Source: Deltaproteobacteria bacterium (lineage in GTDB: Bacteria; Desulfobacterota; Syntrophorhabdia; Syntrophorhabdales; Syntrophorhabdaceae). From it: DNA of 59,235 nt. Location of the stretch: the NCBI GenBank assembly GCA_022711595.1, contig JAKLET010000025.1:1-59235 (forward strand). Direction: 5' to 3'. Both the position numbers and the translations under genes were made by a program. Positions within the stretch are counted from its first letter, which is position 1. Each line of letters opens with the position of its first letter. Positions 26,016 to 55,116 of the stretch are shown piece after piece. The notes beneath the pieces are model-generated. The model was not told the origin of the DNA. It made no database searches and saw nothing but the letters and a program-made list of their open reading frames with translations.

Positions 26016-28621
26016 CCTACTGTTCCTTCCAGATACGCTTCTACTGGATGCATATTTGACGATTGAGGAAATGAGATTGCTAAGCCTATAAGGTCTCGAG
26101 AAAGCGGATCGTTTGGATTGTCATAAAGCGGTCGGCGAATTCCACCGGGTTGCAAATCATAGCCAGAAAATCTGCTAATTGGGTACAACATAAGAAGACC
26201 TTCCTGCGGTAACCGAGCACGCCGCGCTGCAAGGTTTTCAGTTAGACCCTGCTCTCGGTAACGCAGCATTCTATCCTCCGCGTCAGGTGAGAGACCAACC
26301 CTCTCATCTCCGGGGCTAGTAATTACACCGACTGAATCGGTATCTCTGAGACGCGTACGAGAGATTTGCCAAATATGTCCGCCTGAAATTCTCCAAGGTG
26401 CTTCACCCATAATTGTGTCTTGGTTTTGTCTGCCCCGCACCGCGACTGTCCAGCGAGTGAGTTCACCCACTTCAACCTGACGTTCAATATATGCACAAAC
26501 TAAGGAGGGTGAAATACTCCTCGCTTGTTCATCAACGCTATAGCCTCTAAGGAAAGTGAGGATACTATTGGAAAGTATTCCTGACCACACAGGTCCTTTC
26601 TCTTCCCACTGGGGCACACCCAAACCGCCAAGGAAATTCTGAACAGTCAAAAGATTCTGTTCCGCCTGAATTACCAAAGCATCCGGACGACTCAAAGGGA
26701 ACTTGAATGTCTGCTCTAGTTGTCCTGAATAGGACTGTGATATTGTTGTGGCTGAAGCAAACCGGCGCTTAAGTGGGCTTGTCACCTGCATTGTTGGATG
26801 TTGCCATATCCGCATTCCTACTTGGTAGGGCGTTAAACCCTGATTCTCATAAATCTCCAGATCTTCACGGAGTCGATGTTCTACAAAAGCCAAGTCATTA
26901 AACCAACCGGCCAATTCGGCAGTTGTGTATATACGCGTGAGATCATCATAACCGCTCCGGTAACCAAACCATCGGCCCATTTGCATAAGAGTGTCGTAGG
27001 CAACACTTCGGCGGACGAAATAGCTAATCAAAAGCCCTTCCAGAGTAAGCCCACGCGAAAGCCTGTTTCCTCCCACAGCAATTGCCTTCAATGCAGGTTC
27101 ATTCTCATAGTCAAGTACTTCACCAGTTGCACTATTTATCGCCTTCACTTGCACGGCTTCAAAAAAAGGACCTATATGTGACTCGACTTGTTCAAAAACA
27201 ACGTCCCGTTCCAGATGGCTTGCTCTCGTTACTGGGCGAAATTCAGTCTCCCATCGCATCTGAAGACGGTCTCGTATACCATGTCTTCTCTGGTATCGCC
27301 ATTCGTCTCTAAGTTCTGATAATCGCTGCCATACCAAGGTTGCAACCCTCTGCTGTTCAACAACCAGATGAGATATATGTAGAAGCATGGTGGCTGGCAA
27401 ACTTCCGTGTCCGCGTTGCGATCTGGCTGCACCTGCCAGAACAAAATCAATCATAGCATTTTCAATCGATGGAGGTAATTCTCCTTGTTCTAGCGAGTGC
27501 ATATCCTCATCTGGAACATCCCTGATAACATCCAGACCGACAACATGTTCGTCATGTATGGGATCAAAACGCCCAAATAATTCCTCAGTACCGAAATAAC
27601 CCTCTGGTTTCCCCAAATCCATGATAAAATCTTTAGGATACAAATCATTCTCGACCTGTGGGTCAAATGTATCGTGGGGAATAAGTATGTTTGCAAACGG
27701 GGTCGCCGTATAAGCAACATAGACACTCCTCTGAAACCGTCGTAGGAGATCACGAATTAGACTGTTTATAACTGAAGGAGCCTCGTAGTCATCCGGCAAC
27801 GTCTCATCTTCTATTTGATAAGTTCCCCGTGTATCCACACTCGCTTGGTCAGCCTCGTCATCTATTAGGAGCAGAGGTATCATCCGACGTACTTCTTCAG
27901 GTGCTTCATCCAACCACCTAAGTAATCGGCGAAGTACCGGTCCGTTTTTCTTTACAACAAGTAGCACTGGTTGTGAACCTTGAAGTGCGGCGTGATTTGC
28001 ATAACCGGGTCGGAAATCGCCACCGATTTCCTCACGAGTGAATTCATGCCACTGATGGCCGAGTGGAGGTAAACGGACTGAGCCTGACCGGTTATCCACG
28101 TAACCACTTAATTCACGCTTTAAACGAATTTGAGTCTGTCGGCGAAGTCCATTGTCAATTCCTGACAAAACTACCACCAAGCGATAACCCACATCCGCTG
28201 CTTTTGCAATGAGTGCCGTATAATTTGCCGTTTTGCCGCTCTGGACGTAACCTAACACCAAACCCCGAATGTCAAATTGGTCTGTTTCTGTTCGCGCCAA
28301 TTGTCCAAGTATACGGTCGGTTGCTTCATCGAGTAAACGAACGTCGATTATTGACCATCCCTTTACACCAAGAAGGTATTCCCGAAGTGTGGGCCAATAA
28401 TACCAGTCAGATCTGTCAACGTGCCTAAGCCATTCGTCCCGTGGTTGCCCAGAGACAAGCATGCGCACGGGTTCTAATGTAATATTCTCTTCCTGTATAA
28501 TAATCTCACGAATTTGCGCTCTGAATTCTCCTGGTATGACTTGATTTTCGATCGCAGTCTCACGGGAAATCCCGCGATCAATCATCAGTCTAACTATTCC
28601 AAGCGCCTCGTTCAATGTCAT
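25997..28621 (-). CDS. Z1-domain superfamily II-type ATPase
   Basis: 874 residues. Walker A GYVQSGKT (Lys130), Walker B LLLIDDEADQ (254-258), and the Z1 domain with GGNRLSRGLTLEGLLISYFVRR followed by DTLMQMGRWFGYR. Z1 proteins resemble DNA translocases/helicases and occur in restriction-like operons with a GHKL ATPase, methyltransferase and PD-(D/E)XK nuclease (described by Aravind and colleagues in work on MORC origins). It probably couples ATP hydrolysis to DNA remodelling for the nuclease at 24993. Its start overlaps the GHKL stop as ATGA. Confidence 0.92.
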   Translation of the reverse strand: MTLNEALGIVRLMIDRGISRETAIENQVIPGEFRAQIREIIIQEENITLEPVRMLVSGQPRDEWLRHVDRSDWYYWPTLREYLLGVKGWSIIDVRLLDEATDRILGQLARTETDQFDIRGLVLGYVQSGKTANYTALIAKAADVGYRLVVVLSGIDNGLRRQTQIRLKRELSGYVDNRSGSVRLPPLGHQWHEFTREEIGGDFRPGYANHAALQGSQPVLLVVKKNGPVLRRLLRWLDEAPEEVRRMIPLLLIDDEADQASVDTRGTYQIEDETLPDDYEAPSVINSLIRDLLRRFQRSVYVAYTATPFANILIPHDTFDPQVENDLYPKDFIMDLGKPEGYFGTEELFGRFDPIHDEHVVGLDVIRDVPDEDMHSLEQGELPPSIENAMIDFVLAGAARSQRGHGSLPATMLLHISHLVVEQQRVATLVWQRLSELRDEWRYQRRHGIRDRLQMRWETEFRPVTRASHLERDVVFEQVESHIGPFFEAVQVKAINSATGEVLDYENEPALKAIAVGGNRLSRGLTLEGLLISYFVRRSVAYDTLMQMGRWFGYRSGYDDLTRIYTTAELAGWFNDLAFVEHRLREDLEIYENQGLTPYQVGMRIWQHPTMQVTSPLKRRFASATTISQSYSGQLEQTFKFPLSRPDALVIQAEQNLLTVQNFLGGLGVPQWEEKGPVWSGILSNSILTFLRGYSVDEQARSISPSLVCAYIERQVEVGELTRWTVAVRGRQNQDTIMGEAPWRISGGHIWQISRTRLRDTDSVGVITSPGDERVGLSPDAEDRMLRYREQGLTENLAARRARLPQEGLLMLYPISRFSGYDLQPGGIRRPLYDNPNDPLSRDLIGLAISFPQSSNMHPVEAYLEGTVGWRPVE

Positions 28622-29994
28622 TCAATTTCTCCTTTTTTCTTCAAGCATTGGCGGAAACGATTAAAAATTCTGGAAACGATCGGCTTTTCTTCATCATTCG
28701 CCAAATCTATTAAACGGGAATACAGTTCTTCAATGGTCCAAACTCGTTGCGCTCCTAGAAATCCACAATCCTTCTGTTCGGGTACAGTTGACGATTTAGA
28801 TTTTGTCTGCAACACTTGCCCCGATATTACGGAGGAAGAAGCAGGCGTCGTTTGCTCCGTAATTGGCCGATTCGAACACGTTAAGACAGGTCGACTCGAC
28901 GGTCGGTTGTACACCTCTCTTGCAATTTTAACTACCGTTTTAGTCTCATGCTCTGCCTGTTCCCGAATTTGCAGAGGTAATTGGACTCGCATTTTTGCTA
29001 CATTAATCTTGAACGCTTCATCCAGCATCGGAGAAAAGCTAAGCGCAATTCGAGCAAGCTTAGTGTGTTCATCCAAGGTGCGAAGTCTGCACCACCCACC
29101 GCTTTGAATAAGCCGATCCGCACGATAGATATAAAAACCTTGCTGCTGATTCCAATTTGCGGGGCCACTAGAACGCTTGAAGGCGTCAGGGGAACTAAAA
29201 TCGTTCTGATGCGGCAATACATAAGGGTCTAATTTGACTTCACCCACTACTCCTTCGTGTTCAAGGGTTATGACAACTGGTTGCAAAGCTTTCGTCTTTT
29301 TTTCTTGTCGCGCAAACGGGTCCCAAGGTTCTATAGTGTTCCCATTAAGCATTATCTTGAGTTTCCTCTTAGACACTTCGCCAGATAAGAATCGATGAAA
29401 CACCATTCCCAAATGTTCTTCCACTTCCCTGCACATGGTCAAAAGCCTTTTACGGGCCATCTCTCCGTAAGGCTGTTTGTACCCAAGAATCCTGTCAAGC
29501 CGTTGCCACAGAATCACCGTTCCCCTAGTTTTTTTAAGTGGTCTCCGTATCGTTGGACTAAGGCCTTTTTTCTTAAGCGCAATAATTTCCCAGCGATCTG
29601 ATTTTGAAATATGTTCCAAATCCCAACAGTAGGCGGTAATATCTGCACGTTCGGTATTCGTTCTACTCGCTACAATAAGTCGTTGGCATTGGCTCAGTGA
29701 AGCAGTCTTCAATCCTAAGCCAAATTTACCCAAATCTTCTTCTTCGTAGTTTCGATCTGACCCATATCTCATGGCCTCCTTTAACTCTACAGGAGTCATC
29801 CCTTTCCCGTTATCCGCGATTCGAACCCACGAGTCATCACCATCGAACTCAATATCTATTGATACGAGCGAAGCACTTGCCTCTATGGAATTGTCTACGA
29901 GGTCTGCGATAGCGGACGAGAAATCATAGCCCATATCTCGAAGTGATTTAATAAGACGTCTTGCAGAAGGGATTACTTCATTTTTCTTCGCCAT
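28618..29994 (-). CDS. GHKL (HSP90/MutL/MORC-like) ATPase
   Basis: 458 residues from the ATG at 29994, which has AAGGGA about 7 nt upstream; a TTG six codons earlier is less likely. Bergerat-fold motifs: N-box ADLVDNSIEA (with Asp31 where many relatives have Glu), G1 DNGKGM, G2 GKFGLGLKTASLS. An S5-like domain follows (FYIYRADRLIQSGGW), then a Ser/Thr-rich linker and a short C-terminal helical part. Bacterial relatives are the proposed ancestors of eukaryotic MORC ATPases; they are thought to clamp DNA in restriction systems. Confidence 0.9.
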   Translation of the reverse strand: MAKKNEVIPSARRLIKSLRDMGYDFSSAIADLVDNSIEASASLVSIDIEFDGDDSWVRIADNGKGMTPVELKEAMRYGSDRNYEEEDLGKFGLGLKTASLSQCQRLIVASRTNTERADITAYCWDLEHISKSDRWEIIALKKKGLSPTIRRPLKKTRGTVILWQRLDRILGYKQPYGEMARKRLLTMCREVEEHLGMVFHRFLSGEVSKRKLKIMLNGNTIEPWDPFARQEKKTKALQPVVITLEHEGVVGEVKLDPYVLPHQNDFSSPDAFKRSSGPANWNQQQGFYIYRADRLIQSGGWCRLRTLDEHTKLARIALSFSPMLDEAFKINVAKMRVQLPLQIREQAEHETKTVVKIAREVYNRPSSRPVLTCSNRPITEQTTPASSSVISGQVLQTKSKSSTVPEQKDCGFLGAQRVWTIEELYSRLIDLANDEEKPIVSRIFNRFRQCLKKKGEIE

Positions 29995-30016
29995 CAGTAT
30001 TTCCCTTTTCAAATAA

Positions 30017-31264
30017 CTATTTCATTAGATATTCTAGAATCTTCTCTGCGATCTTTTCCATCATAAGAGGTGGTACAGCATTACCTATTTGTCTAAACGC
30101 ACTTGTTCTATTATGTCCTTCTTTTAAACCTTCAAAATAATAATTGTCTGGGAAAGATTGCAGTCTTGCAGCTTCTCTGACGGTTATCGAGCGGTTTTGT
30201 TGTATTTCTGGATGAATGTAATAGTGACCATCTTTCGCAATGTGCGCGACTACCGTTTGAGAATATGGCAAATCATCAGCCACAACCTTAAACCGATCTG
30301 TAAATGCATTCCGATTGTTGTGGGTTTTCAGTCTTTCTGGCAAATCATTGTAGTCTAACCGTTTCCCACAGGTTTGCCACTGCTCAACAGCGATTCTATA
30401 GATCTCCCTGTCCTTTTCAGTGTGTGGTCTGGCCACATGCTGTGTCAGAATTTCCGTCTCTTGTCTGATTTTGGAAGAGCGAAGATACTCATTGAGTGGC
30501 TGTGTATACAATGAGCATTTATCTTTTCCCTCTCCTGCCTTCAACTTCGGAAGGTCTTCAAACACTGCTTTCACTTTGTAAGCGTAAGTGAGATTGTCAC
30601 AGGATAGATCAAGTGAGAAATCCATGCCCTTCTGCCATCCAACAACAATGAGTCTCCTTCTATTCTGGAGTACCCCAAACTCCTTTGCGTTGACCTCGCA
30701 AGCCTGGATTTCATATCCGATTCGTTTGAAATACTTATTGAGATTCGAAAAATGACTTCCGTTTTGTGCAGACAACAAGCCTATTACATTCTCAAAAACA
30801 AACGCTTTTGGTTTGTACCGCTTTAAGAATCTTCCATATTGCACATAAAGATAATTCCTTGGATCTCCCGACATTCCATTTTTATCGCGTGCTCGTCCAA
30901 CCAATGAATATGCTTGGCATGGAGGACCTCCAACGATTATATCAATGCTTTTTTCACCTTTTAGCTCATCTATAGCGTGAAATATATTTTTATTATCTTC
31001 TTGGCCAATTGTTTGGTTTATCACTGAATTAAGAGCATTGTCCGGTATTAAAGAATAAAGCTGATCTCTTGTAATTTCGCCTTTTAGATATTGATTATAA
31101 AAATCGATCTTGTTATTCTTTATAAGATAATGATAGGCAAGTCTTGTTTTTAAAGTGAAACAAGCAGCAACATCATTTTCTATATGCGCTATAGGTTCAA
31201 AACCTGCCCTAATAAAACCTTCTGAAAAACCACCTGCTCCTGCAAATAAATCTATATATTTCAT
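30017..31264 (-). CDS. DNA cytosine-5 methyltransferase
   Basis: 415 residues with the complete motif series: I DLFAGAGGFSEGF, IV GGPPCQAYS (nucleophile Cys116), VI FENV, VIII LQNRRRLIVVGW, IX REAARLQSFPD, X QIGNAVPP. The target-recognition region between VIII and IX (about 215-350) is short to medium. It presumably protects host DNA from the endonuclease and Z1 complex. The neighbouring Vsr repairs T:G mismatches that arise when 5-methylcytosine deaminates. ATG at 31264. AT-richer than the chromosome backbone, in keeping with transfer. Confidence 0.95.
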   Translation of the reverse strand: MKYIDLFAGAGGFSEGFIRAGFEPIAHIENDVAACFTLKTRLAYHYLIKNNKIDFYNQYLKGEITRDQLYSLIPDNALNSVINQTIGQEDNKNIFHAIDELKGEKSIDIIVGGPPCQAYSLVGRARDKNGMSGDPRNYLYVQYGRFLKRYKPKAFVFENVIGLLSAQNGSHFSNLNKYFKRIGYEIQACEVNAKEFGVLQNRRRLIVVGWQKGMDFSLDLSCDNLTYAYKVKAVFEDLPKLKAGEGKDKCSLYTQPLNEYLRSSKIRQETEILTQHVARPHTEKDREIYRIAVEQWQTCGKRLDYNDLPERLKTHNNRNAFTDRFKVVADDLPYSQTVVAHIAKDGHYYIHPEIQQNRSITVREAARLQSFPDNYYFEGLKEGHNRTSAFRQIGNAVPPLMMEKIAEKILEYLMK

Positions 31265-31279
31265 TCTGAAAAACCCTAA

Positions 31280-32470
31280 TTAGTTTTTATTATAGCCCTC
31301 TATGTCACCTTCGGTCATCAACAAATCATCAACTTTTATTCCATTTTCATCCAGCATTTTTGCTTCGTAAAAAAAGTCGTAAAGATCGGCTCCTGATATC
31401 AGCCTAACTGGATAATTGTCTATAATTACTTCTTTTTGTGCGTCTGCTGTAAAATAGCTGGTTGTAAAGAAAAGACCATATTCTCCTCGGGTTAGTCGCG
31501 CAACCAATCTCGACACATCCCTTGGGCCTATTCCGGATTTATGCCGTTTTACCTCACCTTTAAAACCAATCGGATAATTAAAGGGCACTGGAAGTATAAA
31601 TTCCCCTTCCATATCAAACCCGCCATCTCTTACATTCCTGGTTCGGAGGACTTTATGCACGATTGTGTTATAGGACTCCAATAAATGGCATATTATCTTT
31701 TCAAATTCGAAAGGATTGATCAATTCCAATCTTTCTAACAAAGATTGGCCTGGGCCCGATGGGTCAGGTTGTTGCTGCTCTTTACTTCTTATTTTGGTAT
31801 TCCAAGCTGTTAATCTATCTTTGAACCCCGTCTTTATATATTGTTTCCAAACAGGGGGAATCAGCACATGATTAGGCTCTGAATTTCTATTTCTTGCCCT
31901 CTGACAAAGCCATTCAGAATCAACTTCCTCAATATTGAGAATTGCCAATTTGAATCTGTAATTCACCACTCTATTACCGTTATCGATAAACCAAGTTTTG
32001 TCCATACCGTCTAGAACGCACAGACCTTTAAATGTTACTGTTCCAGGTTTTTCTTTCATAAAATATAAAATTGGTGGATGTTTATCCCGATTACCCACCA
32101 AAACATTTTCATAAATGTTTTTTAAAATAAAATTGCCTGGCCATTGGTCTACATTCTTACCGGGTTCATATTTGGCATCGCCCCAATAAAAAATAGTGCC
32201 GGTAGTGTAATCAATAAAATCTTCCCAAGGGTTATGAAAAATATGGCCATACTGAGTGGTGATCAAGAATAATGCTGCAGGTGTTAAGCTTTTGTCTTTT
32301 CGATTTCCCATACCAGAACTAAGCGTTCTGATGCCGCCCGCATTTTTTATACCCCAATTTTGGTTTCTATCTAAACTTAGAGCAGACGCAAATTGATCGT
32401 CTGCAGAATATCCGTCATCTCGGATCTTTACACCGGAATCTACATATGTTTGATCAATTTTCCAAATCAA
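31280..32470 (-). CDS. AspBHI/Mrr-like restriction endonuclease
   Basis: 396 residues from a TTG directly after the vsr stop codon, with GGAGAT 8 nt upstream. The N-terminal half (NPWEDFIDYTTGTIFYWGDAK, GNFILKNIY) resembles the DNA-recognition domain of AspBHI-type modification-dependent enzymes. The C-terminal half is an Mrr-like PD-(D/E)XK domain: GGFDMEGE with Asp286, and FKGEVKRH with Glu306-X-Lys308. Either it cuts unmodified sites protected by the adjacent methyltransferase, or it targets foreign modified cytosine. The presence of a self C5-methyltransferase makes the second use potentially self-harmful unless site contexts differ. Confidence 0.78.
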   Translation of the reverse strand: MIWKIDQTYVDSGVKIRDDGYSADDQFASALSLDRNQNWGIKNAGGIRTLSSGMGNRKDKSLTPAALFLITTQYGHIFHNPWEDFIDYTTGTIFYWGDAKYEPGKNVDQWPGNFILKNIYENVLVGNRDKHPPILYFMKEKPGTVTFKGLCVLDGMDKTWFIDNGNRVVNYRFKLAILNIEEVDSEWLCQRARNRNSEPNHVLIPPVWKQYIKTGFKDRLTAWNTKIRSKEQQQPDPSGPGQSLLERLELINPFEFEKIICHLLESYNTIVHKVLRTRNVRDGGFDMEGEFILPVPFNYPIGFKGEVKRHKSGIGPRDVSRLVARLTRGEYGLFFTTSYFTADAQKEVIIDNYPVRLISGADLYDFFYEAKMLDENGIKVDDLLMTEGDIEGYNKN

Positions 32471-32896
32471 TTAAGTTTGATCTCCCTTTAATTGCCTGAC
32501 CAAGTTATGTAAAGTCTCTTTTTGTCGCTGGCTCATTAATTCACATTCAAAGATAGTAACCACCTTCCACCCCATCCTTGTTAGGTTTTCTGAGCTTTGC
32601 TCATCATTGTTCTTATTTCTATTTATTTTATCCATCCACCATTTCGTACGTGTTTTCGGTACCACAAAATATTTACAGCCATCATGCCCATGCCAGAAAC
32701 AACCATGGACAAAAATAACCGTTTTGTATCTTGGGAAAACCAAATCCGGGGTACCCGGCAACTTTTTGTCGTGAAGTTTATATCGAAAACCCTGAGAGAA
32801 AAGATATTTTCTAACGAGCAATTCTGGTTTTGTATTTTTACTTTTAATTTTTGACATATTGTAACTTCGGATTTTCTTATCGTGCACGTCTGTCAT
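32471..32896 (-). CDS. vsr: Very short patch repair endonuclease Vsr
   Basis: 141 residues with the Vsr signature MSKIKSKNTKPELLVRKYLF, LPGTPDLVFPRYKTVIFVHG and CFWHGHDGC. Asp51, His64 and His69 fall at the same positions as the E. coli catalytic residues, and zinc-ligand Cys residues are present. It nicks DNA at T:G mismatches made by deaminated 5-methylcytosine. First gene of the leftward operon; ATG at 32896. Confidence 0.95.
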   Translation of the reverse strand: MTDVHDKKIRSYNMSKIKSKNTKPELLVRKYLFSQGFRYKLHDKKLPGTPDLVFPRYKTVIFVHGCFWHGHDGCKYFVVPKTRTKWWMDKINRNKNNDEQSSENLTRMGWKVVTIFECELMSQRQKETLHNLVRQLKGDQT

Positions 32897-32993: not shown

Positions 32994-33631
32994 ACATTGT
33001 CGCAATATCGAACAATTATCACGCTATAGCAGTGCTTCATTGGGATTCCCCTGTTAACCCCTTCTGAAGGCTCTGGATGCGTTAACTACGCTGAATTCAC
33101 TGGTGAGCTTTCTTTAAAACTGTTCCAAGTTCCAGGTTCCAAGTTCAACGTTAAGAACACCTTAAGGAAAAATATCTCTTAACTCAGAAACGCTTCATAA
33201 ACTCTCAAACCCTCAAACTGTCTCTATTACCCCAATACTACACAATCTTTTTACCCCTTTGGCCCTTAAAATTCAAGTTAAAAGGTTATGAAGACAGGTA
33301 ATAGGTAATTGGTCAGAGGCCATGGAAAAAACTTTTTTTCATTTTCCCTTTCGTTCAATATGCTTGAGCGGTTCAAGCGGTCTTTCTCTACTACTCCTCT
33401 TCCTTCCCTTCCCATGACCTATCACCTATCACCAATAACCTGTTTTTATGCATTATCGCATGGAAGGATGACAACAGTATGTCCTTGTAAAAACGGTTTC
33501 TTTTGTTTGTTTGGTTTATCTGGTTTGTCTGGTTAGGAAAAAATAAGAAAAACCATGTTTCACGCACTTATCGTCGTTTACACTCCTCACCCGGGCCGCA
33601 GATCCCGCAAGCAGGATAGAAAAGATTCTTT
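32994..33631. repeat. Repeat-filled region right of the restriction island
   Basis: No gene seen. Contains heptamers of the GTTCCAN type (33120-33150), TTCAAACNN nonamers (33190-33225), TTCAAGCGG (33355-33385) and GGTTTNTCT nonamers (33500-33535), in succession, then a weak piece of the long-repeat family. Confidence 0.6.
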
Positions 33632-41692: not shown

Positions 41693-41884
41693 AGAACGGT
41701 TTATCCGGTTTGTTCGGTTTCTATGGTTTGTTTGGTTTTTTTGGTTTCTTCGGTTTCTCTTGTTTTCCCCATTCAAGCCGTTCTTCACTAAAATCCCTCC
41801 CAGCCTCCCTTTCCAAAGGGAGGGACAACCCGTCTTTTTTTAGTTTTTGTTTTTCACGTTCAAGCATTCAAGCTGCTCAAGCAT
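41693..41884. repeat. GGTTTNTNT nonamer tandem array and TTCAAGCNN nonamers
   Basis: Seven consecutive 9-base units each starting GGTTT (41698-41762), then, after a gap, TTCAAGC-type nonamers (41855-41895). The latter run into the end of the ADP-ribosylglycohydrolase gene, supplying its last codons. Confidence 0.75.
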
Positions 41885-42838
41885 TCAAGCCGTCTTTATT
41901 GTTTCCACGAATTTTTCGAAGAGGGCGCCTATGTCCTCTTTGCGGACTATCGTGTCGCGCCAGTCTTGTGGGACAGCGTCGAGGCCGTAGTGGACCCCGG
42001 CGAGGCCGCCGGTGACGATGGCCGTGGTGTCCGTGTCCCAGCCGAGGTTTACGGCCTTGAGCACCGCTTCACGGTACGAGCCCGTGTTGAGAAAACACCA
42101 CACGGCCGCTTCCAGGGTGTGGAGCACGTAGCCGTCGGAGGCTATGGCGTCTTCCGGCAGACTGTCGATGTCCCCCAACAGGAGACGGCCAAAGTTCGGC
42201 ACCTCTTCACGAAAGGGCTTCACGTTGTAATGCCTGCGGGCCTGTTCCATCGAGTATTGATATGCAACGCGAGGGGACCGGCCCTCCAGAAGGGCCCTGA
42301 TCATCAGGCAATAGATGCCGCAGGCCATCATGGCACGGGGATGGCGGTGGGTGATCGACGACGCTTCGCGGGCACATCGCAGCATCTCTTCTTCGGACAT
42401 CACTGAACCGTAAAGTGCAACGGGCAGGATGCGCATCAATGAGCCGTTGCCGTTGTTGCTCTCTTCATCGCCTCCCGCCATCCGTGCCGTTGTACCGGAC
42501 TGCATCCTCGATATCGCCTGCCGCGTACCCATTCCGATATCAAATGTGATCCCATGGGGCGTCCGGTAACCTTCTGCGAACCACCTGACGAAAAGCTTGC
42601 CAATTTGGTCCGCATCGAACCCCTCGAGAAGCCCCTCGGCCGTGCACAGCATGAGAGACGAATCGTCGGACCAGCTCCCCGGCGGCAGGCTGAACGTCCC
42701 GTATCCCCGCATGTCCGTGACCGGGTCTTCCGCGCGCGCGTCCCTGCCCTTGAACTCAACGGGAACACCAAGGGCGTCCCCGACAATGGCCCCCCACAGG
42801 CCGCCAAGCATCCTTCCCTTTTTCGATATGTCCCCCAT
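41885..42838 (-). CDS. ADP-ribosylglycohydrolase family protein
   Basis: About 317 residues from the ATG at 42838, with GGAG 7 nt upstream (an ATG at 42844 is too close to that site). Dimetal ADP-ribosylhydrolase motifs: GAIVGDALGVPVEF, SWSDDSSLML, NNGNGSLMRILP and GWDTDTTAIVTGGLAG with the metal-binding aspartates. Removes ADP-ribose from proteins or nucleic acids, or cleaves related N-glycosides. Last gene of a tight operon with ARPP-1 and DUF2779 proteins. The final residues IKTA are encoded by the repeat cassette that follows. Confidence 0.9.
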   Translation of the reverse strand: MGDISKKGRMLGGLWGAIVGDALGVPVEFKGRDARAEDPVTDMRGYGTFSLPPGSWSDDSSLMLCTAEGLLEGFDADQIGKLFVRWFAEGYRTPHGITFDIGMGTRQAISRMQSGTTARMAGGDEESNNGNGSLMRILPVALYGSVMSEEEMLRCAREASSITHRHPRAMMACGIYCLMIRALLEGRSPRVAYQYSMEQARRHYNVKPFREEVPNFGRLLLGDIDSLPEDAIASDGYVLHTLEAAVWCFLNTGSYREAVLKAVNLGWDTDTTAIVTGGLAGVHYGLDAVPQDWRDTIVRKEDIGALFEKFVETIKTA

Positions 42839-42866
42839 CGTCATTCTCCTTCATCAATTTGCCGAT

Positions 42867-44342
42867 TCACATGTTCTTCAGGACTTCGAGGAGCCTTACC
42901 ATGGCGAGCGTGTCCATCCTGCAATATTCGAGCATCGCCGCGCGGAGGCTTTCACGTTCCTCTCCATCCGCGGTCCCGCACATCCTGAAATAGGCATCCA
43001 TGGCCATCGAGCCGTTCTGCACCTCAAGGTTTTTGTAGCTCATTTCAGGCACCAGCGCGGGGAGGACGGCCTTCAGTGAATAGGAACCGCCGAACTGCCA
43101 GTGGTAGACGTCCCTTCTCCTGAACGGATCCGCCAGGTCCCTCGTGTTGGCAACGATGTTCCCGACCTTTCTCATCTGTGACGGGAACCATTCTGAAAGA
43201 CGCTGCAGGACACCGATCTCGAACCCGGCGTTATAGGCGAGGACGCATCCTTCATCGGGTATGTCACCGGCAAGTCTTTCCATGAGCGCTTCCCTCGGGT
43301 CCATATCGGGCCCGGCAAGAAATTCCGAGTGGTGCAACGGGCCGTCTTCATCGTCCTGCCAGTGGAGCGAATACTGGTAAGGCACCTGCTGGTAAGGCCT
43401 TGTGCCGTCGTACATTGGGATGGCCGTCATAAAGGTTTCGAAATCGAGGAAATAGAGCGGGTACCAGAGGGTGTCCAGAAATTCCCTGACGGCGCCCTTT
43501 GATACGTAGACATCCTGTTTCAGTGCTGCATCGACCTGCATCTGCTGTCTTGGAGAGAGAAAGGTGAAAGGTACATCCTGGAGACGCACTATCCCCTGGC
43601 TGAACAGCTTAAAGGGGAGCGCGCTGCTGCCCTTGATATCGAAGACGGACCCCTCGGGGATGTGCTTCCAGCAGTGGTCCATGAAATCGCATTCGTAAGG
43701 GCTGCTGCAGTGCGGGCCGATATCAATGACAGGTTCACTGCCGGCGAGCATGGCCCTCTGCCGCGTTACCTCCTCCCTGACCGTGTCCTGCCAGCCTTCC
43801 ACATCCGCGGTCACATCATTGACGGTAAAAAGCTTCAGAGGCTCTATCGCCCCCCGGCGCACATACCCGTTGTTGATGTGCACGAGGAAGGCCCGCGACA
43901 CACCGAGGCCCGAACCGCCAAGCACGTAGTACTGAACCGCGGCATCGGGAAAGTACACATCCTTCATGGAGGCGGAGCTTTTGACCTCGTAGATCTCCCA
44001 GCCGCCTGTGCCCCTTCTCAAAATGTCAACCTTCACGAAGACGCCGTCATAAATGAAGGCGGCCTCGTAGATGACCTCCGTGCCTTTTTCTATCTCCTGC
44101 CTCGTCATGGCTGTCTGTTCGCCATGGCTGAGGCCTTCGTAGGGGACAAGCACTCCTCCGGGAAAGAGCGCGCGGGCGACCTCCCCCACCTCTGAACCGC
44201 TGTCGTATATCGCCTGCCGCTCGGCCGTCACAACGCCGGCAAGTTCCGGCCGGTGAATATGGAGATAGAGGGCCTTATGGCATTGCAGCCCTTTTATGAA
44301 CTTCGATTTGCTGAGAGAAAGACCGTCAACCTTCTTTGTCAT
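42867..44342 (-). CDS. DUF2779 protein: Cas4-like nuclease plus exonuclease-like domain
   Basis: 491 residues from the ATG at 44342, preceded by GGAGGTGAA. The N-terminal half resembles RecB/Cas4-type PD-(D/E)XK nucleases: CHKALYL, EIYEVKSSASMKDVY with the Glu-X-Lys, then CSSPYECDFMDHC, which with the first Cys could hold a 4Fe-4S cluster. The C-terminal half is DnaQ/RNase H-like: YFLDFETFMTAIP, LAYNAGFEIGVL, YCRMDTLAMV. DUF2779 proteins are widespread and uncharacterised. Co-operonic with ARPP-1 and an ADP-ribosylglycohydrolase here. Confidence 0.85.
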   Translation of the reverse strand: MTKKVDGLSLSKSKFIKGLQCHKALYLHIHRPELAGVVTAERQAIYDSGSEVGEVARALFPGGVLVPYEGLSHGEQTAMTRQEIEKGTEVIYEAAFIYDGVFVKVDILRRGTGGWEIYEVKSSASMKDVYFPDAAVQYYVLGGSGLGVSRAFLVHINNGYVRRGAIEPLKLFTVNDVTADVEGWQDTVREEVTRQRAMLAGSEPVIDIGPHCSSPYECDFMDHCWKHIPEGSVFDIKGSSALPFKLFSQGIVRLQDVPFTFLSPRQQMQVDAALKQDVYVSKGAVREFLDTLWYPLYFLDFETFMTAIPMYDGTRPYQQVPYQYSLHWQDDEDGPLHHSEFLAGPDMDPREALMERLAGDIPDEGCVLAYNAGFEIGVLQRLSEWFPSQMRKVGNIVANTRDLADPFRRRDVYHWQFGGSYSLKAVLPALVPEMSYKNLEVQNGSMAMDAYFRMCGTADGEERESLRAAMLEYCRMDTLAMVRLLEVLKNM

Positions 44343-44359
44343 TTCACCTCCCTCACCCA

Positions 44360-44566
44360 TTATATATCCTCTTCCACTCCGGCAAAACAAAACTTTTCCA
44401 TGAACGGCAATTCGCCCGCACCCTCAACGTGGTTTTCCCTCGAATCCGCCTCAACACGTCTAAACCCGCGCAACATGGAAAGCACCCTTTCCACCTCGGC
44501 CATCTGGTCTTCGGTGAGATCTTCGATTCCTTTCGACATCCTTGCTGCCGCTGCTTGCCCTTTCAT
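44360..44566 (-). CDS. Small hypothetical protein
   Basis: 68 residues, or 59 from an internal ATG. Acidic and helical: MSKGIEDLTEDQMAEVERVLSML followed by a Phe/Glu-rich tail. GAGGAGAG lies before the ATG. Gaps of 24 nt upstream and 17 nt downstream fit an operon member. No family recognised; could be a small regulatory partner of the neighbouring nuclease. Confidence 0.6.
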   Translation of the reverse strand: MKGQAAAARMSKGIEDLTEDQMAEVERVLSMLRGFRRVEADSRENHVEGAGELPFMEKFCFAGVEEDI

Positions 44567-44590
44567 CTCTCCTCTATCCTCCCTTTCAAA

Positions 44591-45610
44591 TTATATCCTT
44601 TGTCGTATATCCTGTTGCCGCCTGGCGGTCCTGCCTGCCCTTTTTTGGCCTGGCCCGGACATCCCTGACGGCGGCCGCCCGGTCTGAAAAGTCCTGAAGA
44701 ATGCCATGTGAATGACCTTTCCGTAAGTGACAAGCGCCGACCCAACGGCGCGGCGCCCCTCGAAACGGTAGTCGGTCCCGTACCCGACAGACCTGTATTT
44801 CTCTTCCGCGCAGGAGAGGACCGCTTCAAAAAAATCCCTGCCCGCCTTGAGGTGGTCTTCCGCTTTCGTTGTTTCGCCTGCTTCAATGAAAGCGTCCATC
44901 GCGTAGCTCTTAACGAGCTTTTCGTGCAGGTCGGCATACGCGGGCACCAGGGAAACCACGTCGCAGCCCACCACGCTGCCGTCTATAAGGACGAGAAGGC
45001 CCTTCTGGCCATCGCGCAGCGGGAACGCGCGCGTGTACTCATCAAGGCCGGCCCCTTTCGATTCATAGACGTCACGCATGGCGCCGGTCTGTGACTCAAC
45101 TCCGGCACAGCGGGACATCCGGGCAATATCGTCCCACACCTGCCCCTGATCGGAACGAAACATCATCTCGCTGCGCAGGGAATCCGTGACCGTTCTTGCC
45201 TTATTGGCCCGCACTTTCCGGGCCATGATCACCTCCGAATCGCGGAACTCTTCAGTGCGGTACTGCCATCTCCCATGCTCCGTACAGCTCACCGGAATTA
45301 TTGTTTCGGACTTCTCCCTGAGCAGGATGGTCGTGTTGAGGACACGGTTCTGTTTCGCGCCGGCGAGCTCTTCACCGTCGATAAGCAGAACCGGGATGTC
45401 CGCGCTGTTCTTCGCGAGCAGCTCCGGCACCGAACCGCTGTCGCTGACCTCGGTGATGGTGAGCGTGCCCTGCCTGAGGGCCTCCTTAAGCGTCAGGTAC
45501 CGCGGTATATTGCTGACCGGCGCGAATAGCGGAATGAGGGCCATGTTCCTGCAGGCCTGCACATCTCCGAATTCGATCGCATTGATATATTCCGCTATGA
45601 CCTGTTCCAT
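44591..45610 (-). CDS. ARPP-1 domain protein (DUF6569-like)
   Basis: 339 residues. I recognise the ARPP-1 pattern: GDVQACRNMALIPLF near the start, ITEVSDSGSVPELLAKN, PVLLIDGEELAGAKQNRVLNTTILL, then IIPVSCTEHGRW. ARPP-1 was named for its association with ADP-ribosylglycohydrolases and rhodanese-phosphatase proteins in predicted nucleotide-centred conflict systems. An ADP-ribosylglycohydrolase lies three genes downstream. Its biochemical role is unknown. The C-terminus (about 310-339) is Arg/Gln-rich and low complexity. GGAGG 7 nt before ATG 45610. Confidence 0.8.
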   Translation of the reverse strand: MEQVIAEYINAIEFGDVQACRNMALIPLFAPVSNIPRYLTLKEALRQGTLTITEVSDSGSVPELLAKNSADIPVLLIDGEELAGAKQNRVLNTTILLREKSETIIPVSCTEHGRWQYRTEEFRDSEVIMARKVRANKARTVTDSLRSEMMFRSDQGQVWDDIARMSRCAGVESQTGAMRDVYESKGAGLDEYTRAFPLRDGQKGLLVLIDGSVVGCDVVSLVPAYADLHEKLVKSYAMDAFIEAGETTKAEDHLKAGRDFFEAVLSCAEEKYRSVGYGTDYRFEGRRAVGSALVTYGKVIHMAFFRTFQTGRPPSGMSGPGQKRAGRTARRQQDIRQRI

Positions 45611-45771
45611 GCGTTATCCTCCCCTTTTCAAAAAGAGTATAACGACCGGGAGTGACAGCAGTATGTCCGTGTAAAAAGGTTTATCTGGTTTATCTGGTTT
45701 ATCTGGTTTGCCTGGTTTGTCTGGTTTTTCCCGTTCAAGCGGTTCAAGCCGCTCAAGCATTCAAGCCATCT
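45611..45771. repeat. GGTTTATCT nonamer array followed by TTCAAGCNN nonamers
   Basis: Five exact-phase 9-base units from about 45680, then TTCAAGCGG-type nonamers ending GCCATCTTTA directly at the stop codon of the WYL gene. Confidence 0.75.
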
Positions 45772-46776
45772 TTACCTGTGCAGTTTGGCGGCTTCGGCGA
45801 GCTCCTGTTCCACGCGTTTTCGGAACCATCCCGGTTTGACGAACTCCACGTAGGGGAGCCAGGAATACGCCCAGTGCTTGAATTCCACGAAACCCGAGAT
45901 CTTGAAGGAGAGCTCCACGTCACCGTTGGGAAAGACCTTTCGCTTCTCCGAAGGGTGCCACTTCTCTTTTCTCAGGATGTAGTCGGCCACCTCGTACTTG
46001 AAACGGACCGTCACCTCCACTTCGTCACCGTCAACAACACCCCAGCTCTTTTCGAAATACTTCTCAAGGTCGAAATCGGGATCGCGCAGGAAATAACGTT
46101 CGCGGCCCACGGCTGTGATGATCCTGTCAAGGGCAAAGCTCCTGATCTCTTCCCTCAGCAGACACCTGCCGATCATGATCCAGATGCCGTCATTGAAAAC
46201 AAGGCCGTAAGGTTCAACGGTCCTTTTCGTAACCTTCTTCGAATGCTGCGCCCGGTATTCCAGGTCCACGCAGCGGCCCTCACTGGCGCATGTCGACAAC
46301 GTGCCGAAGTGTTCCTCGATATTCTTCGCCATCGCCGGCCCGGGCATCTTGATAAGGAAAGGCACCTTCTGCTTTGCCTTCGACTCTTCAGGAAGCGTGG
46401 CTATCCTGTGAAGCAGCCCCTGGAAGGTGCTCCCCAGATTGCCGCCGAGGCGCGACACGGCCTCTCCCGCGGTCAAAAGGGTTATGAGCTCGCTCCTTGT
46501 CAGCGAGAGCTTCTTCAGCCTGTCAACACCGGTGAACCGGTACCCCTTGTGATGATGATCGTATTCGACGTCGTCGATGCTCCGGATGACCTTGATATAC
46601 CGCTGGATGGTCCGTTTGGATGCCTTGTATTCCCCGGCCAGGGACTCTACGGATGGGTACAGATTCTGTGCGATCTTTTTGTAGATCTCGAGAAGGCGGA
46701 CGATCTTGTCAGATACTCCAGCCCCTTCACTTTTTTTCTTCTTTTTCCCCTTTGGATAGGCACTCACGCTTGTCAC
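45772..46776 (-). CDS. WYL-domain transcriptional regulator
   Basis: About 334 residues: a Lys-rich N-terminus, an HTH (about 20-80, YPSVESLAGEYKASKRTIQRYIKVIR), a WYL domain (about 155-225, VDLEYRAQHSKKVTKRTVEPYGLVFNDGIWIMIG) and a C-terminal WCX region. WYL regulators sense nucleotides or nucleic-acid ligands and often control defence genes. Start codon is GTG: 46776 abuts a -10 box, so the GTG at 46767 (leaderless) is equally likely. It is upstream of and co-directional with the ARPP-1/DUF2779/ADP-ribosylglycohydrolase operon. Confidence 0.9.
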   Translation of the reverse strand: MTSVSAYPKGKKKKKSEGAGVSDKIVRLLEIYKKIAQNLYPSVESLAGEYKASKRTIQRYIKVIRSIDDVEYDHHHKGYRFTGVDRLKKLSLTRSELITLLTAGEAVSRLGGNLGSTFQGLLHRIATLPEESKAKQKVPFLIKMPGPAMAKNIEEHFGTLSTCASEGRCVDLEYRAQHSKKVTKRTVEPYGLVFNDGIWIMIGRCLLREEIRSFALDRIITAVGRERYFLRDPDFDLEKYFEKSWGVVDGDEVEVTVRFKYEVADYILRKEKWHPSEKRKVFPNGDVELSFKISGFVEFKHWAYSWLPYVEFVKPGWFRKRVEQELAEAAKLHR

Positions 46777-46836
46777 AGTATATCAATTCCGCTTTTTTTG
46801 ACAACTTTATTTTTACACACTGACATAGTATTGTCA
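46777..46836 (-). promoter_or_regulatory. Promoter and probable operator of the WYL gene
   Basis: Minus strand TTGTCA (46804-46799), 16 bases, TATACT (46782-46777). A perfect inverted repeat TGACA-N6-TGTCA (46821-46825 / 46832-46836) lies upstream of the -35, and another TGTCA half-site overlaps the start (46771-46775), suggesting autoregulation. Confidence 0.6.
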
Positions 46837-47026
46837 CATGCTGTTGTTGCCATTGCCCATGACAATAATAATGGGGAGGGTATCCTGTGCAAAAAATACT
46901 GAAAACAGTGGGGCCGCGAAAAGATCGTTCTCGAGATAAAAGGACGCGTGGAGCGCTTTCCTTTGACACCGCCTCGATAATTGGATTATATAGAACAGAA
47001 CATATATTGCATCCACGGGAGGAGTT

Positions 47027-47680
47027 ATGAAAAAATTGATGTTATTCGGTATTTTCGCGACACTTTGCCTGACCCTGTCATTGGGGTCAGGTGTTGTCAT
47101 GGCACAGGCACTGCATGACAGGGCAGATGCCGACAAGGACGGTATCGTCACCAAGGCCGATATCATGAAGGCGCTCGAAGAGCGGTACAAGAGCGAAGAC
47201 GCCAACAAGGACGGTAATATGACCGTCGACGAATATCAGCAGGCCCGCAAGAAGAACTTCGATGATGCCGATACCAACAAGGACGGTGTGGTAGGGATCG
47301 AAGAGTGGGTCATCTACTGGTGCGGAACCGACAAGGACGCCGCAAAGGTAAAGAAACCGGTCAAGATGGGAAAGAAGGCGTCGAGGGCGAAACTGATGGA
47401 CGCCAACAAGGACGGCAAGATAAGCAAGAATGAATGCGTCGCGTTCTGGGGCGGCCGCTTCGTTGACCTCGACAGCAACAAGGACGGCAAGATGTCCCGC
47501 GATGAATACATGGAGAAAATGAAGGGAATGGCGAAGATGATGGACCTCAACGGGGACGGCGTCATTGTCATCGAAGAATACTATGTATCCTGGTTGGGAA
47601 AAGACAAGGTCACCATAAAGAACAAACCTGCGGGCAAGGCGAAGAAGCCCTCGGCGGAAAAAGCACCGGAAAAAAAGTAA
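47027..47680 (+). CDS. Secreted EF-hand calcium-binding protein with six loops
   Basis: 217 residues. Signal peptide of about 26 residues (MKKLMLFGIFATLCLTLSLG... ending MAQA). Six EF-hand loops follow: DADKDGIVTKAD, DANKDGNMTVDE, DTNKDGVVGIEE, DANKDGKISKNE, DSNKDGKMSRDE and DLNGDGVIVIEE, all with acidic position 12 or equivalent. Lys/Pro-rich tail. Periplasmic calcium buffer or sensor; partner unknown. GGGAGG precedes the ATG and a strong terminator follows. Confidence 0.9.
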   Translation: MKKLMLFGIFATLCLTLSLGSGVVMAQALHDRADADKDGIVTKADIMKALEERYKSEDANKDGNMTVDEYQQARKKNFDDADTNKDGVVGIEEWVIYWCGTDKDAAKVKKPVKMGKKASRAKLMDANKDGKISKNECVAFWGGRFVDLDSNKDGKMSRDEYMEKMKGMAKMMDLNGDGVIVIEEYYVSWLGKDKVTIKNKPAGKAKKPSAEKAPEKK

Positions 47681-47703
47681 CGACCGCAGGTAAACAGAAA
47701 CGA

Positions 47704-47738
47704 ATGGGGTGCCGCAGGCCGCGGTACCCCATTTTTTT
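47704..47738 (+). terminator. Rho-independent terminator
   Basis: Twelve-base stem ATGGGGTGCCGC / GCGGTACCCCAT with one mismatch, 5-base loop, followed by seven T's. Ends the EF-hand gene. Confidence 0.9.
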
Positions 47739-47873
47739 ACAGACGGGGTGCGCGGACATGACGCTCCATGACGCCGTGCCGCAAGGCCCGGGGGCGCTCC
47801 CCGGCGATATTCCCGTTGACGGCCTTCGAGACAGATACTAATATTATCCTGAGTAGAGAGAGAGCTTATAAAG

Positions 47874-48104
47874 ATGGACTTCCTGGATTGGGCATCACTG
47901 ATCATCGGCGCCTGTTTGATCCTGAGCGGGATGCGGGCCATCCGCAGGCGCCGTGTGAACACCCCTGAACCGCATGAAGGAAAAAGCGCCGTCGGCCTGG
48001 GATGGCTGTGTATCGGACTGGGGGCCCTCTTCATGCTGGCCGCGATATTCGACATAGCTTTTTTAAAGACATTTTTTCGCATCTTCCTGGAAGCGGCAAA
48101 TTGA
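47874..48104 (+). CDS. Small membrane protein, two helices
   Basis: 76 residues. Helix 1 ASLIIGACLILSGMRAI, a basic loop RRRR, and helix 2 GLGWLCIGLGALFMLAAIFDIAF. Hairpin topology with the Arg-rich loop in the cytoplasm. GAGAGAG upstream is a weak ribosome-binding site. No family recognised. Confidence 0.6.
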   Translation: MDFLDWASLIIGACLILSGMRAIRRRRVNTPEPHEGKSAVGLGWLCIGLGALFMLAAIFDIAFLKTFFRIFLEAAN

Positions 48105-48166
48105 CAAGAACGGACCAGCCCGGTTTCCCCGGTTTATTTCTTTCTCGTTAAAAGGTGCAAACTGTT

Positions 48167-48195
48167 TTTACATAAGCGTCCATCTTTGGTAGAAT
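48167..48195 (+). promoter_or_regulatory. Promoter of the Pif1-like gene (leaderless arrangement)
   Basis: TTTACA (48167-48172), 17 bases, TAGAAT (48190-48195), then only 7 bases to the GTG start; no ribosome-binding site is visible. Confidence 0.65.
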
Positions 48196-48202
48196 ACCGG
48201 CA

Positions 48203-49765
48203 GTGCGCAAATCGTTCATAGAGATCAATTCAGAGTTTCGCAGGGCCCTCGACATCATGGAAGACACTAACAGGCACGTCTTCATCACGGGCAAGGCCGG
48301 CACTGGAAAATCTACGCTCCTTGAATACTTCCGTCAGAACACAGACAAGGAGGTTGCCGTCCTGGCGCCGACTGGCGTCGCCGCGCTCAATGTCCACGGA
48401 CAGACCATCCATTCCTTCTTCGGCTTCAAACCGAGCATTACCCCGGAGAAGGTTAAAAAAATATCCGGTCCTGACGGCAAGATTTACACGGAGTTCGACA
48501 CCATTATCATCGACGAGGTCTCCATGGTTCGTGCCGACCTGCTTGACTGCGTTGAGAAGTTCATGCGCCTCAACGGCCCCTACCGGAAACAGTGGTTCGG
48601 CGGGGTCCAGATGATCTTCGTCGGAGACCTCTATCAGCTCCCTCCTGTGGTCACACCCGGTGAAAAGGAGATATTCACCCACCGCTACGAATCACCGTAT
48701 TTTTTTTCAGCCCAGGTCTTCAAGGAAAAGAGTTTCTCCATGGAGTTCGTCGAACTGGAGAAAGTATACCGCCAGACCGAAGAGGACTTTATCGAACTCC
48801 TCAACTCGATACGCAACCGCACATGCACCGATGACGATATCGAGAAGCTCAACAGGAACTGCCGGCCCGATCCCGACCCTGAAGAAGAAGGTTTTTATAT
48901 CACCCTGACCACCACCAACGATCTCGCCGCGAAGCGCAATATGGAGATGCTCGAATCACTCCCGGACCGTTCCTTCACACTGGCCGGCAAGACAAGCGGG
49001 GAATTCGACCGCTCCTCACTGCCCGCGGACGAAACACTTACGCTCAAACCGGGCGCACAGGTCATGCTTGTCAATAACGACAAGTTCGGCCGCTGGGTGA
49101 ACGGGACGCTTGGCATCGTCAAGAGACTTGAAAAGGTTGACGGTGAGGATGACCGCATACTCGTGATGCTCCGGGACGGCCAGATCGTCGAGGTCATGCC
49201 CAACATGTGGGAGCTCTTCGAGTACGAGTATGACAGGAAGACCAGGCATATCTCCACCAGGACAACAGGCACCTTCACCCAGTATCCGATCCGCCTCGCC
49301 TGGGCCGTTACAATCCACAAAAGCCAGGGGAAGACCTTCGACCGCGTCATCATCGACATGGGCCGCGGCGCATTTGCCCACGGGCAGGTCTATGTGGCCC
49401 TGAGCCGCTGCACGAACTTTGACGGCATCATCCTTACGAAAAAGATAAAGAAAGGCCACATCCGCATGGACTGGCGGGTGGCGAAATTCCTCACCATGTT
49501 CCAGTACCGCAAGGCCGACGAGCTCTCAAGCTACGATGAACGCAGCGCCATCATCATGGACGCCATCAGGCGCGACCTGAACATCGAGATCATCTACCTC
49601 AAACCCAACGATACCAAGTCCCGCAGAACGATCCGCCCGATGTCCATTGAACAGATGGAATACAAGGGCAAGTCTTTCGAAGGTTTGCGCGCCTACTGCT
49701 GCATGCGTGGCGAAGAGCGCAGCTTCCGCATCGACCGCATCCTGGAGATCAATTATACGACCTAA
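48203..49765 (+). CDS. Pif1/RecD-like SF1B helicase with C-terminal WYL-like domain
   Basis: 520 residues from a GTG. Helicase motifs: Walker A GKAGTGKST (Lys36), VLAPTGVAALNV, motif II IIIDEVSM, motif III FVGDLYQLPPV, later VTIHKSQGKTFDRVIID and YVALSRCTN. Residues about 455-520 read IIYLKPNDTKSRRTIRPMSIEQM and RAYCCMRGEERSFRIDRILEI, the pattern of a WYL domain. The GTG lies 7 nt after a -10 box, suggesting leaderless translation. Probably a DNA-repair or replication-fork helicase gated by a nucleic-acid ligand of the WYL part. Confidence 0.92.
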   Translation: MRKSFIEINSEFRRALDIMEDTNRHVFITGKAGTGKSTLLEYFRQNTDKEVAVLAPTGVAALNVHGQTIHSFFGFKPSITPEKVKKISGPDGKIYTEFDTIIIDEVSMVRADLLDCVEKFMRLNGPYRKQWFGGVQMIFVGDLYQLPPVVTPGEKEIFTHRYESPYFFSAQVFKEKSFSMEFVELEKVYRQTEEDFIELLNSIRNRTCTDDDIEKLNRNCRPDPDPEEEGFYITLTTTNDLAAKRNMEMLESLPDRSFTLAGKTSGEFDRSSLPADETLTLKPGAQVMLVNNDKFGRWVNGTLGIVKRLEKVDGEDDRILVMLRDGQIVEVMPNMWELFEYEYDRKTRHISTRTTGTFTQYPIRLAWAVTIHKSQGKTFDRVIIDMGRGAFAHGQVYVALSRCTNFDGIILTKKIKKGHIRMDWRVAKFLTMFQYRKADELSSYDERSAIIMDAIRRDLNIEIIYLKPNDTKSRRTIRPMSIEQMEYKGKSFEGLRAYCCMRGEERSFRIDRILEINYTT

Positions 49766-54557: not shown

Positions 54558-55116
54558 AAACGGCTTACCCTGCTTCTGTCGCTTTGCCCCGAAGAAGCGG
54601 GCGTCTTGATAAGTTATTCGCCATTCAGTCGTTTTTATTAAGCTCAATGCGGATAAAAGTTCAGGCTGGAAACCCGAACTCCGGCCTGTCGATGAACTGG
54701 ATATATGTGTTGATGGACAAAGGCATACATGTTCGATTTAATAAATTATGTTGTTTTCATAATGCATATTTATTTTATTTTTTTATATTTATTTTGACAC
54801 TTATTATTAGATGTAATTATTATTATAATAGATTATATATGCTCTATGAATATGTAAATATCCTCATTTTAGAACACAATAGTTTCTTTGTTCATAACTT
54901 TATGCCTTCCATCTGATCGTCCCGGTGAGCCTTCATCCAAATAAATTTACATTTATTCCCGGTATCCGGGCAATCTGTAAGTAATCTGTGGGTATCCGCA
55001 ATGTATAATCTCTCAGATATTCATCTTTGACCAGCACAAGCCATATCAGTCCCTTATAAGACCGGCATCATGCTTTACGGCCGCACCATATTTCTTATCT
55101 AGAGGTGTAACTGCAG
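54558..55116. other. AT-rich divergent regulatory region
   Basis: About 560 bases. The part near the PilZ gene is GC-rich with a CCCG/CGGG hairpin and GCAAAGC sequence. The middle (54755-54870) is almost pure A/T with TTGACA at 54794-54799 and TATAAT about 54824-54829, though their spacing is too long. The right part carries AGAGGTG (55101-55107) before the large surface-protein gene. Likely regulatory DNA for that gene; no ORF with coding character. Confidence 0.5.

Follow-up and report, generated by a model that had tools for sequence, protein, structure and literature searches.

A candidate ARPP-1/DUF2779/ADP-ribosylglycohydrolase conflict module in Syntrophorhabdaceae and the palindromic promoter it shares with other defence genes

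The WYL regulators described at defence loci are for the most part local repressors, each acting on one island, and PafBC and DriD are known as activators of damage responses. The locus described here is a five-gene module of a Deltaproteobacteria bacterium (family Syntrophorhabdaceae; assembly GCA_022711595.1), in which a WYL-WCX regulator adjoins genes for ARPP-1, a 68-aa protein, a DUF2779 protein and an ADP-ribosylglycohydrolase (ARG). It lies in the first 59,235 nucleotides of contig JAKLET010000025.1, which we call the window. Like BrxR and CapW, its regulator is a WYL protein encoded beside defence genes; unlike it, those two are local repressors with long inverted repeats, and they are not among its nearest solved relatives in the PDB, which are PafBC and DriD. 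Both PafBC (PMC11804915) and DriD (PMC12340889) are activated by single-stranded DNA (ssDNA), and both govern regulons that are damage responses. The mycobacterial PafBC motif reads tTGTCRgtg-8 nt-TAnnnT (PMC5656591), while DriD binds a palindrome with GAC/GTC half-sites that overlaps the -35 element at a fixed distance to the -10 (PMC12340889).

The closest described relatives of the module itself are the systems predicted in section 3.8 of Iyer, Burroughs, Anantharaman and Aravind 2022 (PMC9503650), where ARPP was named. As given there, the class is centred on ARG and is accompanied by WYL or Nudix regulators, phosphatases, chaperones, restriction endonuclease effectors and ARPP; ARPP-WYL pairs are also listed, and the phosphatase partner is present in slightly >55% of the ARG-centred cases and is therefore not obligatory. 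The window operon shares with this class an ARG without a coupled ADP-ribosyltransferase, a WYL regulator, ARPP, a nuclease partner and variable add-ons. It differs in having no R-P phosphatase, in having as its nuclease DUF2779, which section 3.8 does not name, and in a regulator that resembles a wide-regulon ssDNA-triggered activator rather than a local ADP-ribose-sensing repressor. Because that section describes an ARG/WYL/ARPP/restriction endonuclease class, this kind of module is already known as a prediction and the DUF2779 version is a variant of it. A preliminary description of this DNA, made from the sequence alone, had taken the gene set to be undescribed as a defence system, a view that is not supported, as the combination of ARG, WYL, ARPP and a nuclease is predicted in section 3.8.

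The module occupies 41885-46776 on the minus strand, with the following genes.

45772..46776, minus strand: WYL-WCX transcription regulator (winged helix-turn-helix (wHTH)-WYL-WCX), PafBC/DriD-like; Pfam WYL at 2e-19 plus WCX; start codon uncertain
44591..45610, minus strand: ARPP-1, 339 aa; Pfam ARPP-1 at 2.6e-99
44360..44566, minus strand: 68-aa acidic protein (S68), isoelectric point 4.7; called from its open reading frame (ORF) and codon score; no family match in Pfam
42867..44342, minus strand: DUF2779 two-nuclease protein; Pfam DUF2779 (PF11074) at 1.3e-40
41885..42844, minus strand: ADP-ribosylglycohydrolase (ARG/DraG family); Pfam ADP_ribosyl_GH at 2.4e-83

The ORF list confirms all five co-directional genes as first described, the last four tightly spaced with gaps of 24, 17 and 22 nt from ARPP-1 to ARG; the wider gap of 161 nt between the WYL gene and ARPP-1 contains a promoter. 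The best start of the DUF2779 gene is the ATG at 44342, closely preceded by GGAGGT. A Pfam scan of the five genes and their near neighbours found one ARG, no ADP-ribosyltransferase or sirtuin, and no phosphatase partner.

We think it probable that this operon serves as a conflict module, that the neighbouring WYL-WCX protein turns it on as an ssDNA-responsive activator, and that it forms one output of a defence and damage regulon. The gene families, the recurrence of the module, its promoter and its place in the regulon are demonstrated below by sequence comparison, and the substrates proposed for all of its enzymes are putative.

Promoter palindrome and WYL regulator

A palindrome of the form TGACA-N6-TGTCA stands 5' of ARPP-1, 11 nt before the -10 box, and the window holds two further sites of this kind.

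45653..45668, minus strand: palindrome GGACATACTGCTGTCA 5' of ARPP-1; TATACT (45641-45636) 11 nt on
46821..46836, minus strand: palindrome TGACAATACTATGTCA 5' of the WYL gene; TAAAGT (46809-46804) 11 nt on
33469..33484, minus strand: third palindrome GGACATACTGTTGTCA; GATAAT 11 nt on; second of the two strict matches in the genome

The sites upstream of ARPP-1 and WYL share a GACA-N6-TGTC core, and the WYL gene's own site, TGTCAGTG-N8-TAAAGT, fits the PafBC promoter consensus; the 11 nt between palindrome and TAnnnT equal the spacing in tTGTCRgtg-8-TAnnnT. Besides the window, the palindrome is found 5' of ARPP at 11 of 13 loci of the family (L and G numbers denote the loci and genomes that we compared), the other two having a degenerate site (L036) and a half site (L023). 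Outside the family it is present at 2 of 91 loci. Scanning 60 genomes with the strict pattern GACANMCTGYTGTCA gave 52 matches, all of them in 22 genomes of the family and none outside it, compared with 2 for the reversed pattern used as a control. The pattern was derived from some of the loci that were scanned, but it did not include the -10, and TAnnnT lies exactly 11 nt after TGTCA in 36 of the 51 distinct sites with context; the second position of the hexamer is A in 47 of these 51.

The window genome has a single wHTH-WYL gene, so that the pafB and pafC pair behind the PafBC heterodimer is not found in it. With mycobacterial PafBC the window protein shares the wHTH-WYL-WCX architecture and a TTGTCR-N11-TAnnnT promoter. 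The ssDNA-contact residues of PafB are retained in part: of five arginines checked, R181, R204, R208 and R214 align with the conserved R185, R208, R212 and R218, while R211 has no such counterpart, nor has Y196. The window protein differs from PafBC in being a single gene with a full palindrome, for which a homodimer is expected, in having largely defence genes as targets, and in belonging to another phylum. With DriD of Caulobacter it shares a homodimer-type palindrome whose GAC...GTC half-sites overlap the -35 at a fixed distance to the -10; the DriD site is GAC-N7-GTC within a longer consensus, compared with GAC-N8-GTC here, and DriD targets few genes, of repair and toxin type. From the kinship with PafBC and DriD together with the promoter layout we infer that the adjacent WYL protein regulates the operon, that ssDNA is its ligand, and that it activates rather than represses. 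The suggestion in the preliminary description that WYL or ARPP-1 senses an NAD or ADP-ribose signal is not supported, and both lines point instead to ssDNA as the ligand of WYL.

In the mechanism that we propose, phage attack or DNA damage would generate ssDNA, which would bind the WYL domain of the WYL-WCX protein. The protein would then bind TGACA-N6-TGTCA in place of a -35 box and recruit the housekeeping RNA polymerase to the -10 box 11 nt downstream, most likely in the manner of DriD, a homodimer, and PafBC, a heterodimer. Of the proteins made, ARG would probably strip ADP-ribose off host molecules, for example after the action of a phage ADP-ribosyltransferase, ARPP-1 might process or retain the sugar that is released, using its invariant Cys/Gln/Glu site, and foreign or damaged nucleic acid would be degraded by the DUF2779 protein.

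An alternative mode of control, predicted in PMC9503650 (Iyer et al. 2022, section 3.8), has the WYL protein repress the operon and respond to ADP-ribose or nucleosides set free from ADP-ribosylated host molecules; the operon would then be a defence against ADP-ribosylation with its own product as inducer. ARG, ARPP and WYL do occur together with no ADP-ribosyltransferase among them, and an R-P phosphatase adjoins ARG in congeners and in other families, as this idea would have it. However, the same promoter stands at CRISPR, BREX, restriction-modification (R-M) and repair genes that are unrelated to ADP-ribose, the palindrome replaces the -35 box at a fixed spacing as in activator promoters, and the nearest solved relatives are ssDNA-triggered activators, and we judge such a repressor distinctly unlikely.

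The link between motif and regulator can also be followed across the genomes of the family, where 19 have both the motif and a strong WYL match, 3 the motif only, 4 the WYL match only and 11 neither (p = 4e-4, a value inflated by kinship). The motif is found in all 11 genomes with a WYL protein of the window type. This correlation is imperfect, as might be expected if the palindrome served as operator for some other regulator, such as LexA, and the WYL genes nearby were merely co-inherited, and palindromes 5' of repair genes are typical of LexA. We consider this highly improbable, given the fixed 11-nt spacing to the -10, the site 5' of the WYL gene itself and the match to a known WYL-factor promoter. 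Furthermore, the strict motif occurs only twice in the window genome, both times on this contig (5' of ARPP-1 and of the R-M island), and therefore marks no genome-wide SOS set, though LexA itself was not searched for.

Genes downstream of the palindrome

Targets were assigned by reading the genes 3' of the sites together with profile matches. Ten sites precede ARPP operons, two precede ARG or phosphatase-ARG, and three precede S65, a family of very acidic proteins of 60-65 aa, alone or together with DUF2779. Another eleven stand before defence genes, either recognised or candidate: CRISPR-Cas of type I-E (G002, G026; Cas3e/Cas8e) and type I-C (G006, G025, G029; Cas3c/Cas8c), BREX with BrxF/BrxC/PglX (G009), type I R-M (G036), a helicase with a type IIG enzyme (G027), uracil-DNA glycosylase (UDG) with an HmaA/DrmD-like helicase (G036), an SLFN-type helicase (G008) and an island in the window itself, which is low in GC.

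24993..32896, minus strand: defence island with Vsr, an AspBHI/Mrr-type restriction endonuclease, a C5-cytosine methyltransferase and MzaB-, MzaC- and MzaD-like proteins; about 0.57 kb 3' of the third palindrome

Three more sites precede AddAB-like or ERCC4 nucleases, about six lie directly 3' of a WYL gene and 5' of small proteins, and SNF2 helicases and Bro-N/YhcG are among the other genes 3' of sites. About half of the sites are at defence-type genes, which is a descriptive count and not an enrichment over random promoters.

Since relatives have the same promoter at genes for CRISPR-Cas, BREX, R-M and repair, the module is best seen as one output of a defence and damage regulon, and this suggests a single regulator that induces many unrelated defences upon DNA damage or invasion. 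The regulon is well supported by the sequence comparisons, appears to be undescribed in the literature that we searched, and is a more important result than the module. Extending this to the family as a whole is about an even call: in Syntrophorhabdaceae one ssDNA-triggered WYL activator may be the master switch for much of the defences (CRISPR-Cas I-E and I-C, BREX, several R-M systems, repair nucleases and ARPP-1/DUF2779/ARG) through a palindromic promoter without a -35, with newly acquired systems wired in by gaining the promoter. If true, a single WYL activator of the damage type would govern unrelated defences and repair nucleases through a family-wide promoter, which would join the study of defence regulators to that of damage responses and show how separately acquired defences become co-induced. 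It would also give ARPP-1 and DUF2779, both of them families with no known function, a setting in which they can be tested directly (ssDNA, palindrome, reporter).

Several observations weigh against this interpretation. About ten sites have no recognisable target and are either unassigned or chance matches, and the island site is 0.57 kb upstream of vsr with its -10 (GATAAT) shifted. The three motif genomes without a strong WYL match and the four WYL genomes without the strict motif do not fit, and as subfamilies WYL-A and WYL-B both accompany the motif, the binder is not singled out. Two PafB residues are replaced in the window WYL protein (R211 by Ala, Y196 by Ile). Lastly, in the literature searched we found no ARPP-1 or DUF2779 protein with a demonstrated enzyme activity or effect on phage resistance.

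The promoter at AddAB-like, ERCC4 and UDG genes, the damage-response character of the PafBC and DriD regulons (PMC11804915, PMC12340889) and a DUF2779 protein that is Cas4-like plus exonuclease would also suit a DNA-repair operon, one acting on ADP-ribosylated or otherwise damaged DNA and not against phage, with the defence genes merely sharing a damage promoter. We hold this to be unlikely, as the promoter is found at many dedicated phage defence systems and the module is patchily distributed and mosaic in origin.

Some other genes recur 3' of the palindrome. A small CxxC...CxxC (zinc-ribbon-like) protein comes first after it upstream of ARPP in L033, L034 and L035, and also in L270. Small exported proteins with YDRDWN/ELQAPE-type repeats follow it directly, often after a WYL gene (L268, L271, L288, L293, L301), and DUF932 proteins of phage or plasmid type are found in L256, L263 and L286.

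Recurrence and origin of the module

The order WYL-ARPP-DUF2779-ARG is repeated in three family genomes of another genus (L021, L026, L027), and ARPP-DUF2779-ARG is found in a fourth (L062), where the contig begins at ARPP. Two congeners have DUF2779, ARPP and WYL in other orders (L033, L034), and WYL, ARPP and ARG are together in L022, L024 and L030, the last also with an R-P phosphatase. These varied groupings of ARPP, WYL, DUF2779, ARG and phosphatase point to a mix-and-match set. All 10 family DUF2779 genes with upstream context are beside WYL, ARPP or S65, and the unlinked ones neighbour WYL or S65 in every case where the contig extends to the upstream side. Outside the family, ARPP is mostly with WYL and sometimes with ARG or phosphatase; DUF2779 is with ARPP in L204 only, a genome of another family with ARPP, DUF2779 and ARG. 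Across the phylum, ARPP and DUF2779 co-occur in genomes at about the rate of chance (6 observed, 6.4 expected), and their association amounts to linkage within a single family and one further case outside it, not a universal pairing. The recurrence of gene pairings in other genomes, which the preliminary description had proposed as a check, is thus borne out, and together with the gene families it supports the conflict-type module proposed there.

The window segment appears as an insert when compared with congeners, as follows.

41693..48202, no strand assigned: insert segment holding the module together with a small ORF and an EF-hand gene; congeners lack it at this site
48203..49765, plus strand: PIF1-like helicase with a C-terminal WYL domain; besides this and the regulator's, the genome has no WYL domain

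In congeners a radical-SAM gene directly neighbours the PIF1-WYL helicase, with gaps of about 167-235 nt in L238, L244 and L245, compared with 6.5 kb in the window. The helicase belongs to the core genes of the genus (81-86% identity) and lies 3.2 kb from the regulator's WYL. Congener ARG genes are at a different site, often with the phosphatase, and are in most cases 67-70% identical to the window ARG. In trees, the window ARG and ARPP group with congeners (SH-like approximate likelihood ratio test, SH-aLRT, 99 and 100) and the window WYL and DUF2779 with other genera (99 and 96), which makes the operon a mosaic as judged from these phylogenies. Features beyond those first described are the palindrome that these promoters share, its further occurrence above the R-M/Mza island, and the insertion between genes adjacent in congeners.

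The stop codons of ARG and WYL are each directly followed by an array of 9-nt repeats, at 41698-41898 and 45678-45774 of the window; the two arrays resemble each other, with repeats of the GGTTTATCT and TTCAAGCCG types. We rejected them as flanking direct repeats that mark a transposon, as such arrays are scattered over the genome and not specific; one core form of the repeat has 17 copies in it.

Proteins of the module

The ARPP-1 assignment made at first sight holds in the profile search listed above. Its invariant residues among 16 homologues are C109, Q87, E80/E81, K86, R89, E111 and R114, a Cys/Gln/Glu/Lys/Arg cluster that, as far as can be told from the family, would be suited to sugar chemistry as proposed in PMC9503650 (section 3.8). 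The structural model (pLDDT 87) has no convincing match in the PDB or among viral models, the best being a Foldseek E of 0.02 and a VIA-align Z of 4.9 over 73 residues, and a sequence search of the PDB gave no match. A profile search of the PDB with DUF2779 gave none either, and there is little on either family in the literature searched.

The fold model of the DUF2779 protein (pLDDT 93.6) agrees with the two nucleases first proposed for it. Its N-terminus matches Cas4 (8d3l, E 1e-5; 7mi4, Z 14.5 over 187 residues) and its C-terminus a Pol alpha exonuclease-like domain (Z 16 over 172 residues), and the model is thus of a Cas4-like PD-(D/E)XK domain followed by a DEDD-type 3'-5' exonuclease-like domain. 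This agrees with PMC3985635, which describes DUF2779 as a family of RNase H-like exonucleases that also have a DUF83 (PD-(D/E)XK-like) domain. Invariant residues are C21, C212, C218 and C224, four cysteines as in Cas4-type iron-sulfur nucleases with the cluster itself predicted, and D300/E302/D477. The ARG has the SDDS (59-62) and DTDT (270-273) motifs, and its closest solved relative is the Listeria ADP-ribosylglycohydrolase Lmo0067 (PDB 8za7, E 2e-83).

The 68-aa ORF has a codon score of 0.165, which falls in the coding range and only slightly exceeds the 99th percentile for non-coding frames (0.158), and it is therefore probably a real gene. No relatives of its product were found by phmmer in an initial set of loci. 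It has a weak likeness to a 72-aa protein of another WYL-palindrome operon (shuffle Z of about 9 over 29 residues only), and BLASTP with the latter gave no match to it. A 55-aa gene (C55) in the equivalent position of another genus was considered as a homologue and rejected as unrelated. C55 is itself a conserved acidic, cysteine-containing ORF that overlaps the DUF2779 start (L021:8801-8968, L026:8484-8651, L027, L062). The S65 proteins adjoin ARPP, ARG or DUF2779 and are themselves directly 3' of a palindrome promoter, with the following examples.

L036:4609-4788, L035:8517-8813, L123:6196-6384, L248 and L276: S65 family

At the far end of the window (55000-59235) the GC content reaches up to 68%, the GC skew is inverted relative to the rest of the window, and the gene content is odd-looking.

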